The notes under the pieces are model-generated. The model saw only the letters and a program-made list of their open reading frames with translations. It made no database searches and was not told the DNA's origin. Below are positions 21,835 through 27,313 of a DNA stretch of 64,000 bases, piece by piece (the stretch's first letter is position 1; each line of letters begins with the position of its first letter). This stretch comes from Alicyclobacillus mali NBRC 102425 (lineage in GTDB: Bacteria; Bacillota; Bacilli; Alicyclobacillales; Alicyclobacillaceae), in NCBI RefSeq assembly GCF_001570745.1, contig NZ_BCSG01000004.1, forward strand, positions 62,001-126,000, in the 5' to 3' direction. The position numbers and the translations under genes are program-made.

Positions 21835-22629
21835 TTATGAGCGGGCGGCGCTCTGCGATGCTGCGGCCGTCCGCCGGACGCGCGCCAGTGCCTGTGCCGC
21901 GCGCGCCCAACCTGACGGATTGCCGATGTCAAATCGTTCCCCGGCCAGGCACTGCGCGTACACGCCATCCGGCAGAAGAAGACGAATGGCGTCCGTCAAC
22001 TGGATCTCGCCGCTCGCATCGGGCGCCGCCTCGGACAACGCGTCGAAGATGCGCGGCTGAAACGCATATCGCCCCACCATGGCGACATTGGACGGCGCCT
22101 GCGTCGGCTCCGGTTTTTCCACGACTTCCACCACGCGCGCTCCTTCGTACAATCCGACCATGCCATACTGGTGCACTTCGTCGGGCGGGACCTTCTGCGT
22201 TCCCACGAGTGCGGCCCACGATGCGGGTGCGTTCCGCCCCAGCGCGAGGAGGGCGGGTGTCTCGGCGAAGAACAGCTCGTCCGGCAAGAGGACGTAAAAC
22301 GGCTCCTCTCCTACAGCGTCTTTCGCACTCCACACCGCGTGTCCGAGGCCGAGCGGCCGTTCCTGGACCACAAACTGGATTTCCGGCACTTCACCTTTGC
22401 TCGCTCGCAGCTCTTTCGCCCAGTTTTGCACGAAGTCCACGAGCATCCTTTTTCCCGGATGGATCACGACAATCACGCGCGCCACCTTGGACATACGCGC
22501 CTCCTCAAGCCCGAATGCGATGGCGGGCGTGTCCAGGATGGGGAACATCTCCTTTGGAATCCACAGTGTCGCCGGTCGCAGCCTCGTACCTAGACCTGCG
22601 GCCGGAATGACGGCGCAGCCAATGTGCAT
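21835..22629 (-). CDS. galU: UTP-glucose-1-phosphate uridylyltransferase
   Basis: This 264-residue nucleotidyltransferase makes UDP-glucose from UTP and glucose-1-phosphate, for glycolipid and wall sugar synthesis. Its motifs are VIPAAGLGTRLRPAT (nucleotide loop), PKEMFPILDTPAI, ERPLGLGHAVWSAKD and EVVEKPEPTQAPSNVAMVGRY, as in Bacillus GtaB. It is slightly shorter than the usual 290 residues because the C-terminus is trimmed. ATG 22629 is chosen with GAGGAGAGG upstream. It is transcribed divergently from the YkcB-like glycosyltransferase, and the region between them carries a notable repeat array. The convergent MFS gene ends 32 bp away. Confidence 0.92.
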   Translation of the reverse strand: MHIGCAVIPAAGLGTRLRPATLWIPKEMFPILDTPAIAFGLEEARMSKVARVIVVIHPGKRMLVDFVQNWAKELRASKGEVPEIQFVVQERPLGLGHAVWSAKDAVGEEPFYVLLPDELFFAETPALLALGRNAPASWAALVGTQKVPPDEVHQYGMVGLYEGARVVEVVEKPEPTQAPSNVAMVGRYAFQPRIFDALSEAAPDASGEIQLTDAIRLLLPDGVYAQCLAGERFDIGNPSGWARAAQALARVRRTAAASQSAARS

Positions 22630-22690
22630 CGGTCTCAACCTCTCCTCGCCATCCAAGTTGTTGCCATCACCGCCATCTTGCTCTCCGAGC

Positions 22691-22786
22691 CTGAAACGGG
22701 CCTGAACCGAGGCTGAAACGCTGTTGAACGGCTGCGTTCAGCGGCGCCCTCAGGATCCTTTCAGCTTGCGCTCAAACGCGATTCAG
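22691..22786. promoter_or_regulatory. array of 11-bp-spaced CTGAA repeats (response-regulator-like operator)
   Basis: On the plus strand CTGAAA, CTGAAC, CTGAAA and TTGAAC begin at 22691, 22702, 22713 and 22724, exactly 11 bp apart. On the minus strand similar units end at 22741, 22753, 22764, 22775 and 22786 (CTGAA, CTGAG, CTGAA, TTGAG, CTGAA), spaced 12, 11, 11 and 11 bp. Direct repeats at one helical turn are the footprint of tandem OmpR/PhoB-family regulators such as PhoP. The array could control galU, the YkcB-like operon or both. Confidence 0.72.
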
Positions 22787-22826
22787 GTTGTTCGCGCATG
22801 ATGTCCACGCAACGACACGAGCACAG

Positions 22827-25052
22827 ATGGGGAGTGGAGTGGCATTGGAGACCAAGCGCCGATGGACCTGGGACAGGAGCGTGCTCGCACTTATCGCGGC
22901 CGTGGCCCTGTTCCTCAATCTGTACGCGCTCAACAAGGAGGGCTACGCGAACGAGTACTACGCTGCGGCCGTGCGCAGCATGCTGGAGAGTTGGCACAAC
23001 TTCTTCTTCGCCTCGTTCGATCCCGGCGGCTTCATCACCATCGACAAGCCGCCTCTTGACTTTTGGATTCAGGCTGCATTCGCTTACGTGTTCGGCTTTC
23101 ACGGCTGGGCTCTCATCCTGCCGCAGGCGCTGGCGGATGTGGGCTCCGTGCTGCTGATGTTCACGCTGGTCAAGCGTCACTTTGGCAAGGTGGCGGGTCT
23201 CATCGCGTCGGCCGCCATGGCGCTCACGCCCATTGCCGTCGCGGTGAGCCGCACCAATCAGGTGGACGGGATGCTGGTGTTTCTCATGCTCCTCGCCACC
23301 TGGTTCCTGTTCCGCGCCATCGAGACGAACCGCCTGCGCCCGCTGATAGGCGTCGCCGTCATGGAGGGGCTCGCGTTTAACACGAAGATGATGGAGGCCT
23401 ACCTCATCCTGCCTGCCATCTACGCGGGCTACTTCGTCGCGTGCAAACTTCCCTGGCGCAGGAAACTCGCCTACCTCGGCGTCATGACGGCGCTCCTCGG
23501 CGCGATTTCGTTCAGTTGGGCGACCGTGGTGCAACTGACGCCTGCGAGCGAGCGCCCTTACGTAGGCAGCACCACCGACAACAACGAATTCACGCTCATC
23601 TTTGGTTACAACGGCGTGAACCGGCTCACGGGCAACATGGGAGTCGGCGGACGAAATTTCAGGATGGAGTTCGGCCGTTTCCCCGGCGCGGGCGAATTCG
23701 GACGCCGCTTCACGCAGGGCGCGGGTGGATTTCCGGGCGGCGCCTTCCCGGGCTCGAGTTCGGCCGGCAGTCAAAGCGCGGGGCAAGGCGGGGCAGGCCG
23801 GGCCTTCGGCGGATCGGGCGCAGGATTCCCAGGCGGCCAGGGCAGTCAGGCGCCGTTCCCGTTTGGCAGCGGCGAGTTTCGCCGAGCGTTCGGGACGGGC
23901 GGCTACGTCCATCGCTTTGGCGACGGCTTCGGCGGTGGCTTTGGTGGCGGCGGCTTTGGTGGCGGCGGCTTTGGCGGCGGTGGCATGTTCGACACCGGCA
24001 CGCGCGGCGTCCTGCGCCTCTTCCAGGCCCAACTCGGGCCGCAGATCGGCTGGCTTTTGCCCATCGCCTGCCTCGCCCTTGTGCCGCTGCTTCGCAACGT
24101 GCGCTGGAAGCGGCGCCGCGAGCTGACGGATGCCGAGCGGGCGACCCTCTTCTGGGCCGCGTGGCTCATCCCTGTCGGCGCGTTCTTCAGCGTCGCGGGG
24201 TTCTTCCACCAGTACTACCTCATCACGCTGGCGCCTGCCATCGCCGCGCTGGTCGGGGCGGGGCTCGTGGCGATGTGGCGCGACTTCCGGGCGGGTGGCC
24301 GCTGGAAGTGGTACTTGCTCGGCGTGGTTTTGCTCGATCTCGTCTACGAGTGCCTGATGGTCCGCAGCTATCCGACGGTGCGCGTCGCGCTCATCGCGGT
24401 GACGGTCGCGCTGGCGGCTTTCTCGGCGGCGCTTTTGTTCCTTCCGCGGCTGTCTTTGCGCTGGCGGCGCGCGGGCGCCGTCATCGGACTCCTCTCCCTC
24501 CTCGCCGTGCCGGGGTACTGGTCGCTGACGCCCGCACGCTACGGGGTAAACGGCACGATGCCCGCGGCGGGTCCGGCGGGATCGACGAGCGGTGGCATGG
24601 GGGTTGCGGGCCGGACGAGCGAGAACGACAACGTCGCGCAGTATGAGAAGCTCATTCGCTACCTGGTGGCGCACTACCGGCCGTCCAAGGGATCGTTCCT
24701 CGTGGCGACGCTGAACGCCCAGCCCGCAGAGCCCATCATCATCGCGACAGGTCTGCCGGTGATGGCGATGGGAGGCTTCTCGGGATCCGACGGGGCGATG
24801 ACCGTCGCGAAGCTCGAGCAGCTATGCGAGGAGGGCAAGGTGAAGTACTTCCTCCTCGACGGCGGCGGTGGCTTCGGCGGGCGAGGCAACAGCCAGATCG
24901 TCACCTGGATCGAAAAGCACTGCAAGCTCGTGTCGGCGAGCGCGTGGGGCGGCGTGTCGTCGAGTTCGGCGGCGAGTCGCGGTGGCTTTGGCGGATTCGG
25001 CGGCATGGGGGGGCTTGAACTGTATGTCTACACAGGTAACGCCCAGTCGTGA
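22827..25052 (+). CDS. YkcB-like membrane glycosyltransferase (PMT/ArnT superfamily, GT-C fold)
   Basis: This protein of about 741 residues has some 11 membrane helices. The N-terminal YANEYYAAAVRSMLESWHNFF and DPGGFITIDKPPLDFWIQA are characteristic of the Bacillus YkcB group, which uses polyprenyl-linked sugars on the outer membrane face. A large Gly-rich insert (about residues 270-390) lies in an extracytoplasmic loop. The soluble C-terminal domain ends with YLVAHYRPSKGSFLVATL and another Gly-rich patch. The start is ambiguous: ATG 22827 is used here, but GTG 22839, with GGGGAG just upstream, has the better ribosome site. It overlaps the YkcC-like GT2 gene by 29 bp, and that partner probably makes its lipid-linked sugar donor. 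Confidence 0.88.
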   Translation: MGSGVALETKRRWTWDRSVLALIAAVALFLNLYALNKEGYANEYYAAAVRSMLESWHNFFFASFDPGGFITIDKPPLDFWIQAAFAYVFGFHGWALILPQALADVGSVLLMFTLVKRHFGKVAGLIASAAMALTPIAVAVSRTNQVDGMLVFLMLLATWFLFRAIETNRLRPLIGVAVMEGLAFNTKMMEAYLILPAIYAGYFVACKLPWRRKLAYLGVMTALLGAISFSWATVVQLTPASERPYVGSTTDNNEFTLIFGYNGVNRLTGNMGVGGRNFRMEFGRFPGAGEFGRRFTQGAGGFPGGAFPGSSSAGSQSAGQGGAGRAFGGSGAGFPGGQGSQAPFPFGSGEFRRAFGTGGYVHRFGDGFGGGFGGGGFGGGGFGGGGMFDTGTRGVLRLFQAQLGPQIGWLLPIACLALVPLLRNVRWKRRRELTDAERATLFWAAWLIPVGAFFSVAGFFHQYYLITLAPAIAALVGAGLVAMWRDFRAGGRWKWYLLGVVLLDLVYECLMVRSYPTVRVALIAVTVALAAFSAALLFLPRLSLRWRRAGAVIGLLSLLAVPGYWSLTPARYGVNGTMPAAGPAGSTSGGMGVAGRTSENDNVAQYEKLIRYLVAHYRPSKGSFLVATLNAQPAEPIIIATGLPVMAMGGFSGSDGAMTVAKLEQLCEEGKVKYFLLDGGGGFGGRGNSQIVTWIEKHCKLVSASAWGGVSSSSAASRGGFGGFGGMGGLELYVYTGNAQS
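23925..23984 (+). repeat. 15-bp-period GFGGG coding repeat
   Basis: Sixty bases encode about four GFGGG units in near-identical 15-bp steps, within a wider Gly-rich insert from about 23640 to 23990. The repeats stay in frame. They lie in a predicted extracytoplasmic loop of the YkcB-like protein. Confidence 0.85.
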
Positions 25053-26085
25053 GTGGCCTCGCGGGCAGGCGCACACGGTCAGCTCGGTCCTTCCGGGCGA
25101 CGTGGGCCTGCCCGGAGGCCGGCGCCCACAAGGCCGCAACCTCCTCTCCGTGGTCGTCCCGGTGTTCAACGAGGAGGACGTAATCCTCACGACGCACGAG
25201 CGGCTGACGTCGGTGCTCGACGGGCTCCCTCTGTCGTGGGAGCTCCTGTACGTGGACGACGGCAGCAACGACGCCTCTCCTGTGCTGCTCGACAAGCTGG
25301 CGGAAGGAGATTCGCGCGTGCGCGTCATTCACTTCGCGCGCAACTTCGGCCACCAACTGGCGATCACGGCCGGGATCGACGCGGCCATGGGCGACGCCGT
25401 GGTCGTGATCGACGCGGATCTGCAGGACCCGCCGGACCTCATCCCCGAGCTCGTCGCCAAGTGGCGCGAGGGGTACGATGTCGTGTTGGCGCGCCGAGCC
25501 ATCCGCTTTGGCGAGACGTGGTTCAAGCGCGCGACGGCGGCGGCCTTTTACCGGGTGCTGAATCGCATGACGGACGTGGAAATTCCGGTGGACGTGGGCG
25601 ACTTTCGGCTGATGGACCGAAAGGTGTGCGACGTGCTCCGGGCACTGCCCGAGCACCGCAGGTTCGTGCGCGGGCTCGTGGCCTGGATGGGCTTCCGCCA
25701 GGCCGAGGTGGAGTACGTCCGCCAACCCCGCTTCGCCGGCGAATCCAAGTATCCGCTTCGCAGGATGATGCGTCTGGCGTCGGACGCGGTGACGTCGTTT
25801 TCCACGCGCCCGCTTGGCTGGCCGCTTTACGCGGGTGCGGTGGCAGGCCTGTTGGGACTCCTCGCTTTCGCGGCGTTCGCGGCGCTCTTTGCCGCGAGCG
25901 GGAAGATGATGGACGTGATGGCGCTCGTGCTTTCGGGGGTGGTGGTCTGCACGAGCGCCGTGCTGGTCTCGGTCGGACTTCTCGGGCTCTACGTGGGCAA
26001 CGTCCTCGACGAGGTTCGCGGTCGGCCTCTCTATATTGTCGATCGCGCCGTGGGCTTGCGGAGGGAGGCTTCTCCGCGTGAGTGA
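25024..26085 (+). CDS. YkcC/GtrB-like polyprenyl-phosphate glycosyltransferase (GT2)
   Basis: This 353-residue protein has a DPM1-like GT2 domain (residues about 45-275) and two C-terminal membrane helices. LSVVVPVFNEEDVI, ELLYVDDGSNDASP, VVVIDADLQDPPDLIPE (DxD) and PVDVGDFRLMDRK are the catalytic motifs. Enzymes of this group transfer a sugar from a nucleotide donor to undecaprenyl phosphate on the cytoplasmic side. The ATG lies inside the end of the YkcB-like gene with a G-rich site (25010-25016). Its own 3' end overlaps the following GT-C gene by 8 bp. The three genes form one glycosylation operon. Confidence 0.9.
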   Translation: MSTQVTPSREWPRGQAHTVSSVLPGDVGLPGGRRPQGRNLLSVVVPVFNEEDVILTTHERLTSVLDGLPLSWELLYVDDGSNDASPVLLDKLAEGDSRVRVIHFARNFGHQLAITAGIDAAMGDAVVVIDADLQDPPDLIPELVAKWREGYDVVLARRAIRFGETWFKRATAAAFYRVLNRMTDVEIPVDVGDFRLMDRKVCDVLRALPEHRRFVRGLVAWMGFRQAEVEYVRQPRFAGESKYPLRRMMRLASDAVTSFSTRPLGWPLYAGAVAGLLGLLAFAAFAALFAASGKMMDVMALVLSGVVVCTSAVLVSVGLLGLYVGNVLDEVRGRPLYIVDRAVGLRREASPRE

Positions 26086-27313
26086 GGCGTCCGCGCGCAT
26101 CGTGCACAAGATCCCTGCCTGGGCGTGGTTTGTCGCGTGCTGCCTTGCGTCGCTGGCCATTCAGCTGGCGCTTGCCGCCACCACCCGCGGCTACGTGGCA
26201 GATCAGGCCATCTTTCTCCGCTGGGCGGAGGCCGTACGCACGGCGGGCCTGTCGCGCGCGTATGAGGCGGGCGGGATCGACTATCCGCCGCTCTACCTGT
26301 ACGTGCTCGACGCCTACGCGCGCCTTGCGTCGGCGCTGCATTTGGGCCTTCGCCCGGGTACGTTCTGGGCCAAGCTGCCCGGCATCGCCATCTACGCGGC
26401 GCTCATGCCCGCGATGTGGGCGCTGTCGCGGGGCATGCGAGCGGAGAAGCGCCGGTGGGCCATCGCCGGGTACTGCCTGAACCCGGTCCTCATCTTCGGC
26501 ACCGCGGTGTGGGGGCAGGTGGACGTCATCGACGCGACGCTCGCGCTCGCCGCGGTGTGGCTGGTGAGCAAGCGGCCGCTTGTGGCGGGCGTGGCGTTCG
26601 GGCTGGGTCTTGCGGCGAAATTCGAGACCATCGTGGTGCTGCCGGTGCTGCTCACCGCCGCGTGGGCGCAGCCGCCGCGCCTGCGCCGCCTGGGCCAGCT
26701 CGCGTGTGGGGCGTTGATGTCTCTCGTGCTTGTCGCCCTGCCGCTTTGGGGCGGAGGGCTTTGGCCCATGATTCGCTCTGCGTACATCGCCACGACCGGC
26801 GAGTACCCGTACCTCAGCATGAACGCGATGAATATCTGGTTTGATTTCTTCGACGCGTCGCCGTACGCGTCGGATCGCGCGCCCGCCATCCTTGGGCTCA
26901 CCTACAAGGAGGTGGGGCTCTCGCTTCTCGCCGCTGCCTGTCTGGCCGCCCTCGCGTATCTCGTCCGATCCCGTCAGGCCCTTTCCATCCGGGCAACGAG
27001 CGCCGCCGCGTTCGTCGGCTTCTCGTTTTTCATGCTGGCGACCGAGATGCACGAGCGGTACGTGGTGCTCGCGGTGACCCTCGTCTCATGGCTCGCCGCG
27101 CTCGACAGGCGGTGGCGCGCCGTGGCCACGGCGCTAGCGTTCAGCGCGTTCTGGAACCTGTGGGTCGTGTGTTTTGGCGCGGTGAACGCGCAGCAGGACG
27201 CGTGGATGGTCTACCTGAATCTCGCCGCGTACGGGGCGATGGGCGTGGTCATGGCTCGGGAGGTCATGCCTGGGCGCCGGGCCCGTCGGCCTGTCGCCGA
27301 AGCAACCGAATGA
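26078..27313 (+). CDS. multi-spanning GT-C-type mannosyl/glucosyltransferase-like protein
   Basis: This 411-residue protein has about ten membrane helices and resembles the DUF2029/PIG-M-like polyprenyl-sugar-dependent transferases. The first extracytoplasmic loop carries VADQAIFLRWAEAVRTAGLSR and GIDYPPLYLYVL, where acidic residues fit the GT-C catalytic site. Later motifs are GTAVWGQVDVIDA and FMLATEMHERYV. GTG 26078 is chosen because GGAGGGAGG at 26060-26068 is well placed and overlaps the YkcC-like stop. The acceptor is unknown; cell-wall polymer or glycolipid are both possible. The last 50 bp overlap the opposite-strand sirC gene tail to tail. Confidence 0.82.
   Translation: MSEASARIVHKIPAWAWFVACCLASLAIQLALAATTRGYVADQAIFLRWAEAVRTAGLSRAYEAGGIDYPPLYLYVLDAYARLASALHLGLRPGTFWAKLPGIAIYAALMPAMWALSRGMRAEKRRWAIAGYCLNPVLIFGTAVWGQVDVIDATLALAAVWLVSKRPLVAGVAFGLGLAAKFETIVVLPVLLTAAWAQPPRLRRLGQLACGALMSLVLVALPLWGGGLWPMIRSAYIATTGEYPYLSMNAMNIWFDFFDASPYASDRAPAILGLTYKEVGLSLLAAACLAALAYLVRSRQALSIRATSAAAFVGFSFFMLATEMHERYVVLAVTLVSWLAALDRRWRAVATALAFSAFWNLWVVCFGAVNAQQDAWMVYLNLAAYGAMGVVMAREVMPGRRARRPVAEATE

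Follow-up and report, generated by a model that had tools for sequence, protein, structure and literature searches.

Organization of the galU-ykcB intergenic region

The DNA analyzed here, a stretch of 64,000 nucleotides (the window) from a 2.79-Mb genome of the genus Alicyclobacillus, contains two divergent genes separated by an intergenic region at positions 22630-22838. On the minus strand, a galU-like gene (21835-22629) encodes a nucleotidyltransferase (Pfam NTP_transferase) predicted to be a UDP-glucose pyrophosphorylase; its best NCBIfam model is galU, with a score of 201.3 bits that lies below the 326.8-bit cut-off of that model, and the protein presumably makes UDP-glucose. On the plus strand, ykcB (22839-25052, with a start at GTG 22839 or TTG 22845) encodes a membrane glycosyltransferase of the GT-C type with the Pfam domains PMT_2 and YkcB_C, which among the named relatives is closest by identity to those of A. 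fructus and A. sendaiensis. It is followed by an open frame (24868-26085, plus strand) for a ykcC-like polyprenyl-phosphate glycosyltransferase (Pfam Glycos_transf_2); translation probably starts farther downstream than 24868, and the gene is probably part of the ykcB transcript. The next gene, 3' of ykcC (26036-27313, plus strand), encodes a GT87-like membrane protein (Pfam GT87, 25.5 bits against a cut-off of 25) and possibly belongs to the same transcript; a GT87-like gene also follows ykcB-ykcC in loci L049 and L206.

A preliminary description of the intergenic region had reported nine CTGAA repeats, four forward and five reverse, and we located all of them. The forward copies (CTGAA at 22691, 22702 and 22713, TTGAA at 22724) are all separated by steps of 11 bp, and the reverse copies (TTCAG at 22737, CTCAG at 22749, TTCAG at 22760, CTCAA at 22771, TTCAG at 22782) by steps of 12, 11, 11 and 11 bp, so that the regular phasing of about one helical turn stands with the step from 22737 to 22749 as its single departure. 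Three of the nine copies (TTGAA, CTCAG and CTCAA) are variants. The repeat unit, previously given as CTGAAC-N5, makes better sense as TTCAG, oriented towards each gene and its promoter. When the minus strand is read towards the galU-like gene, from 22728 to 22691, the units are TTCAA (22724-22728) and three times TTCAG (22713-22717, 22702-22706, 22691-22695). Exactly 10 nt past the last TTCAG of this galU-facing array (22691-22728) stands a -10-like hexamer, CAAGAT (22675-22680, minus strand). The ykcB-facing array on the plus strand (22749-22786: CTCAG 22749, TTCAG 22760, CTCAA 22771, TTCAG 22782) has the same arrangement, with the -10-like hexamer CATGAT (22797-22802) exactly 10 nt past its last TTCAG. 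The extra TTCAG on the plus strand (22737-22741), 12 bp ahead of the next unit, is unconserved and probably not a core unit. Direct repeats at a pitch of about 11 bp, with at least two units per promoter, are thus present at both genes, as in the tandem-repeat promoters of OmpR/PhoB-family response regulators (RRs).

Conservation of the repeat units within Alicyclobacillus

Five Alicyclobacillus genomes share the region. In four close ones, 34 of the 35 bases in seven units of the two arrays are invariant, versus 19 of 36 in the spacers; with G014 as a fifth genome, whose left array is out of register in the alignment owing to an insertion, these values are 28 of 35 and 16 of 36. The three TTCAG units of the galU-facing array keep 14 of 15 bases in G003, G009 and G012, and all four ykcB-facing units are invariant in the five genomes. 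On the galU side, the hexamer at the matching distance is CAAGAT in G003, G009 and G014, and CATCAT in G012. The copy at 22737 has none of its five bases invariant across the five genomes, and the copy at 22724 is partly conserved (two of five bases in four genomes). On this alignment nine functional copies were rejected: seven, perhaps eight, are supported as functional. The preliminary description had staked its reading on the conservation of phasing in related genomes, and the phasing is indeed kept, both in the genus and beyond it (see below).

Genome-wide search and a candidate regulator

Both occurrences of CTGAA-N6-CTGAA in the window fall in the galU-ykcB intergenic region, while 100 dinucleotide-preserving shuffles of the window gave a mean of 0.06 occurrences and no shuffle with two. 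The whole genome was searched for TCAG repeated four times in steps of 11 bp, with up to two mismatches allowed. Of the five matches (one for the reversed control pattern), two are the arrays in the window, two are registers of a single array on contig C23, and the fifth is a chance-like match on contig C55 that has no fitting hexamer. With at most one mismatch, three matches are left genome-wide, the pair in the window and the C23 array (none for the control), which makes the latter the sole other array of this quality in the genome. The shuffles, the genome-wide search and the conservation of the units agree with the earlier statement that the regular array is hard to explain by chance.

Because the two-mismatch pattern also gave chance-like matches in the genus, genome-level counts were restricted to at most one mismatch. 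The two-mismatch matches that were inspected comprise those with a locus, the further matches of G004, G013 and G014 being listed without one. Nine of them (L136, two in L137, L141, L145, L151, L157, L160 and L163) lack a hexamer with A at the second and T at the sixth position (A2 and T6) at 10 nt. Four have it: L152 and the left arrays in L155 and in L156, all three also in a fitting place, and L161, which has at least the hexamer.

The C23 array reads TTCAG, TTAAG, CTCAG, TTCAG, followed after 10 nt by TACGCT, and precedes a gtrA-like gene, an OmpR-family RR gene and a histidine kinase (HK) gene. Since this array stands before an RR-HK operon, it points to the likely regulator of the window arrays: the RR encoded between gtrA and the kinase gene (G000:C23:32617-33354; domains Response_reg and Trans_reg_C). 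The curated PhoB model TIGR02154 gives this RR 199.9 bits, which is below the cut-off of 296.2 bits, and we do not claim PhoB membership for it; its closest solved RR by sequence is PhoP of Mycobacterium tuberculosis. At 13 loci of the genome, an RR DNA-binding domain passes the Pfam cut-off. The sites are thus linked to an OmpR-family RR encoded in the same genome, and cooperative binding by such a regulator, as first suggested for this region, would still be the best reading, now with a specific candidate. Moreover, the galU-like gene, gtrA, ykcB and ykcC fall under one site type, as in a regulon of the kind known for Bacillus subtilis YclJ: the window genome has arrays at galU, at ykcB(C) and at gtrA-RR-HK, and in G008 one precedes a galU-ykcB-ykcC-gtrA run.

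Co-occurrence of the candidate regulator and the arrays in the genus and family

An RR with at least 61% identity to the C23 RR is encoded in 10 of the 15 genus genomes, the next matches having at most 45%. Arrays with at most one mismatch occur in all ten genomes with this RR and in none of the five without it. Allowing two mismatches adds G002, G006 and G011, with chance-like matches. A ykcB homologue is present in G006 (47% over the best piece), a genome with neither the RR nor an array, and RRs of 42-43% identity are encoded in G002, G010 and G011, all of them genomes without such arrays.

Arrays between galU and ykcB were found in G000, G003, G009, G012 and G014 (on the galU side with two mismatches in G009 and G012), and G005 has an array at ykcB. 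The same six genomes have an array before RR-HK, with two mismatches in G005, and gtrA was matched between this array and RR-HK in G000, G003 and G005. Around the RR gene loci of G007 and G008 no strong array was found (best scores 12-15 of 20). G007 has a run like that of G008, with galU and ykcB as pieces only; at L194:2833-4983 these short pieces lie beside the array, ykcC and gtrA match well, and the run may be decaying. At 10 nt downstream of 22 distinct genus arrays with at most one mismatch, the hexamer has A2 in 22 of 22 and T6 in 20 of 22 cases, the two misses being TAAAAA in G004 and G013.

Two array sites in G008 have no clear target. One of them (L196:3441-3477) is a four-unit array with no mismatches and TATATT at 10 nt, with no clear open frame downstream; a small gene or RNA could possibly follow it. 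A variant array common to G007 and G008 (L195:3412 and L197:3612) has TACACT at 10 nt and lies about 450 bp ahead of the next co-directional open frame.

In the family as a whole, the RR is present in 20 of 41 genomes. Among the matches listed, and with exact tandem copies excluded by eye, arrays with at most one mismatch occur in 17 of the 20 genomes with the RR and in one of the 21 others (G040, with one near-tandem match). For three RR-bearing genomes outside the genus, G024, G025 and G032 (72% complete), there is no array with at most one mismatch among the matches listed. Exact 11-bp tandem repeats containing TCAG were seen, again among the matches listed, in G018, G019, G020, G027, G030, G033 and G041; the one at G018:C1:3377491-3377725 has about 20 copies, and all of them resemble minisatellites rather than promoter arrays.

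Arrays upstream of ykcB and RR genes in other lineages

A ykcB query returned 79 loci, of which 77 were scored (L085 and L103 were left out because upstream sequence was lacking), 72 of them outside Alicyclobacillus. For each locus, the unit derived from the window served to score the 330 bp ahead of the ykcB match, and other stretches of the same locus provided the comparison. Outside Alicyclobacillus, a four-unit array exceeded the background of its own locus at p<=0.05 in 54 of 72 loci and at p<=0.01 in 38 of 72. When an RR of at least 55% identity within the locus was counted as nearby, 33 of the 34 RR-bearing loci and 21 of the 38 others had an array at p<=0.05; at the sole RR-bearing exception (L100) the array stands at the RR itself. 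A. pomorum (L048) has ykcB-ykcC-gtrA and no array.

Strong arrays, with a score of at least 15 of 20, were found at 52 loci, including four from Alicyclobacillus. In all 52, A2 and T6 of the -10-like hexamer are present exactly 10 nt downstream, while the next-best offset, 13 nt, has them in 17 of 52. The hexamer played no part in choosing these arrays, which are related to one another and form 22 clusters at 75% identity. Of the 14 RR loci in the window genome, the one on C23 was the best match for each of the 35 RRs tested from the ykcB loci, at least 104 bits ahead of the next, and all 35 share the recognition-helix core NIVEVY. Units of the TTCAT type at an 11-bp step, ending 10 nt before TACAAT, were seen ahead of a Bacillus ykcB-like gene in L076, L084, L089 and L094; this gene adjoins what we take to be a yycB-type transporter gene.

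The regions upstream of the RR genes themselves contain an array at p<=0.05 in 18 of 34 loci and with a score of at least 15 in 16 of 34 (L083 was left out because its RR is cut by the locus end). A perfect score of 20 of 20 was obtained for L056, L073, L074, L080, L087 and L100, and GATAAT stands at 10 nt in L056, L074, L080 and L087. Applied mechanically, the hexamer rule holds for 13 of the 16 arrays. L073 and L100 fail it because the rule overran the array by one unit; on inspection, GATAAT stands 10 nt past their last true TTCAG. In L112, GATAA begins at 11 nt. The position relative to a -10-like element is thus fixed, as in the class II layout, for all 52 strong arrays ahead of ykcB and for 13 of the 16 ahead of the RR gene. 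In L074 and L087, opposed arrays lie between the RR gene and ykcB, with the RR gene in the place that galU has in the window.

For Bacillus spizizenii, an RR chosen by protein similarity alone (61% identity to the C23 RR, next 45%) also has divergent arrays, with four units towards the RR gene and four towards a PepSY gene. The PepSY-facing units end 10 nt before TACAAT; the RR side fails the 10-nt rule because AATAAT stands at 9 nt. At this locus (L179:4932-8846), the genes of the two-component system diverge from two PepSY-type genes, of which one was checked by Pfam, with the opposed TTCAG arrays in between, and the flanking genes are rocR/rocD-like and htrA-like by eye. We know of no counterpart of this locus in B. 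subtilis 168.

Comparison with known regulators

The kind of element described here, a tandem-repeat promoter of the OmpR/PhoB type, is already known. At the pho box of Escherichia coli, tandem 11-bp units bound by PhoB replace the -35 element about 10 nt from the -10 element in promoters of the phosphate regulon; the window arrays share this layout and differ in the unit (CTGTCAT in the pho box, TTCAG here). The boxes of PmrA/BasR, WalR and B. subtilis PhoP are direct repeats of 6-bp half-sites with spacers of about 5 bp, and their cores (TTAAG, TGTWA and TTAACA, respectively) set them apart from the window units. MprA and CutR were the first candidates, on account of supposed TCAG-like sites; MprA-box terms were not found in the open-licence PMC papers searched.

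In M. tuberculosis, PhoP binds 7-bp direct repeats with a strict 4-bp spacer, that is at an 11-bp pitch, as a head-to-tail dimer, and its binding is tighter and cooperative on three and four motifs in a row (PMC4832192). As far as the accessible text of that paper describes it, this geometry is that of the window arrays, and the Asn, Glu and Tyr of the base-contacting helix align with identical residues in the C23 RR. The motif itself, TCACAGC, differs from TTCAG, and so do Val213, Ser216 and Tyr220 of the recognition helix, which in the alignment are Ile, Val and Ala in the C23 RR. CutR was rejected by inspection, given that its binding motif, TAWATAAA (PMC12802291, in the portion available), differs from the TTCAG units. 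No report of TTCAG arrays paired with the lineage of the C23 RR was found in the titles and abstract openings of open-licence PMC papers, and it is this pairing that we have not found in print.

Proposed mechanism and alternative explanations

The sites, their phasing, their fixed distance to a -10-like hexamer, their conservation and their association with the RR were computed directly. Most likely, the arrays would be tandem boxes for one PhoP/PhoB-type RR that activates a surface-glycosylation regulon, functionally matching the YclJ regulon of B. subtilis. Under the specific model that we favour, at a probability of about 0.72, the intergenic region would hold paired back-to-back promoters, each behind three or four TTCAG units at an 11-bp pitch, for the RR encoded on C23. 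Phosphorylated RR monomers would stack head-to-tail and cooperatively along one face of the helix, one per unit. With the promoter-proximal unit 10 nt from the -10 element, the RR would stand in for the -35 element and recruit RNA polymerase; we infer such class II activation because a classical -35 element would have to lie inside the array, an arrangement shared with the pho box of E. coli. The expected outcome is co-activation of galU for the supply of UDP-glucose, of ykcB-ykcC for the synthesis of a lipid-linked sugar and its transfer outside the membrane, and, from their own array, of gtrA (a putative sugar-lipid flippase) with the adjoining RR and HK genes. The arrangement leads us to predict that the RR binds and stacks on the sites, that it activates instead of repressing, and that its targets act in glycosylation.

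Repression is the strongest competitor. The C23 RR might bind and repress one or both promoters, or activate one and repress the other, and the proximity of the last unit to the core promoter recalls positions from which some RRs repress. The fixed distance of 10 nt to the -10 element at both promoters fits activator layouts such as the E. coli pho box, which makes repression rather unlikely. Examples of repression from such positions come from CutR (PMC12802291, as far as its available text goes), whereas YclJ is described as an activator of the corresponding operons of B. subtilis (PMC7961091, likewise).

The layout of the promoters alone cannot fix which RR acts on them because the known activator of ykcBC in B. 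subtilis is YclJ, with YrkP also named, and the presumed YclJ of B. spizizenii has only 35% identity to the C23 RR. A different OmpR-family RR of the host (YclJ-like, YrkP-like, or the 42%-identical RR on contig C1) could therefore bind the arrays, with the link to gtrA-RR-HK being indirect, and the 13 RR loci of the genome offer such candidates. The promoter region of ykcB in B. spizizenii is also like that of the window (TTAAT-N6-TTCAT, an 11-bp step, 10 nt before TACACT), with a unit that differs from TTCAG. The B. spizizenii RR in L172 and L180, which we take from its place to be YclJ, is only 35% identical to the C23 RR, while another RR there reaches 61% (compared in one direction). It therefore represents a separate lineage rather than an orthologue, and its recognition helix (NIINVHMRRLREKI) differs from that of the C23 RR (NIVEVYISALREKL). 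A YclJ box was reportedly published by Ogura in 2010. The RR beside PepSY-like genes in L167 and L181, presumably YkoG, is 44% identical to the C23 RR and is not its best match, and was rejected as a counterpart.

For B. subtilis, YclJ is the described activator of ykcBC (PMC7961091), and the operon is listed in both the YclJ and the YrkP regulons (PMC5836110). The pathway modelled there, all under YclJ, comprises UDP-glucose synthesis (YngB), formation of a lipid-linked sugar (YkcC), a GtrA-type flippase (YngA) and transfer outside (YkcB) (PMC7961091). The function-matched counterparts of this regulon (ykcBC, yngABC) in the present genome would be galU, ykcC, gtrA and ykcB. Against binding by another RR, the presence or absence of arrays tracks the C23-type RR in 15 of 15 genus genomes, the RRs of 42-43% identity also occur in the array-less G002, G010 and G011, the RR's own upstream regions often contain arrays, and the 35 RRs of the ykcB loci all match the C23 RR best. 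We consider this explanation quite unlikely.

A decayed, functionless 11-bp minisatellite is brought to mind by the exact TCAG-containing repeats of the seven family genomes mentioned above. It is very improbable for the window, where the spacers all differ and drift while the units stay fixed, the two arrays are oppositely oriented, both end 10 nt from a -10-like hexamer, and the arrangement is kept far outside the family. Chance clustering of CTGAA, to which the shortness of the unit and the three variant copies might have pointed, has a negligible probability in view of the shuffles, the genome-wide search and the conservation.

Extent and significance of the proposed regulon

If the proposed activation by the C23 RR is correct, a two-component system whose range runs from Alicyclobacillus and Paenibacillus to Desulfosporosinus gains a DNA code that can be tested, a regulon of few genes and a probable role, the sugar decoration of the cell surface. 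Multi-unit arrays fixed 10 nt from the -10 element would also provide a clean natural system for the study of RR stacking and class II activation. According to the accessible text of PMC7961091, the biological role of the B. subtilis YclJK system is not known, and the conserved regulon in other genera therefore offers a way in.

A wider reading, which we put forward tentatively and would not yet favour, is that this two-component system is widespread in Firmicutes and runs a surface-sugar regulon through TTCAG arrays, in some lineages together with membrane redox and PepSY genes, and that in Bacillus it has been replaced by YclJ, from another lineage, with the regulon and the promoter geometry kept. 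The PepSY genes of B. spizizenii are one example of such additional targets. In G007 and G008, an array faces a ykcB-like gene that is back to back with peptidoglycan-binding and ApbE-like genes (ApbE-like by eye). In G004 and G013, an array comes first in a run of genes for a peptidoglycan-binding protein, an ApbE flavin transferase, a ferric-reductase-like membrane protein and the RR (L192:3179-6001 and L200:860-4000; domains checked for G004), and these two runs possibly represent a redox branch of the regulon.
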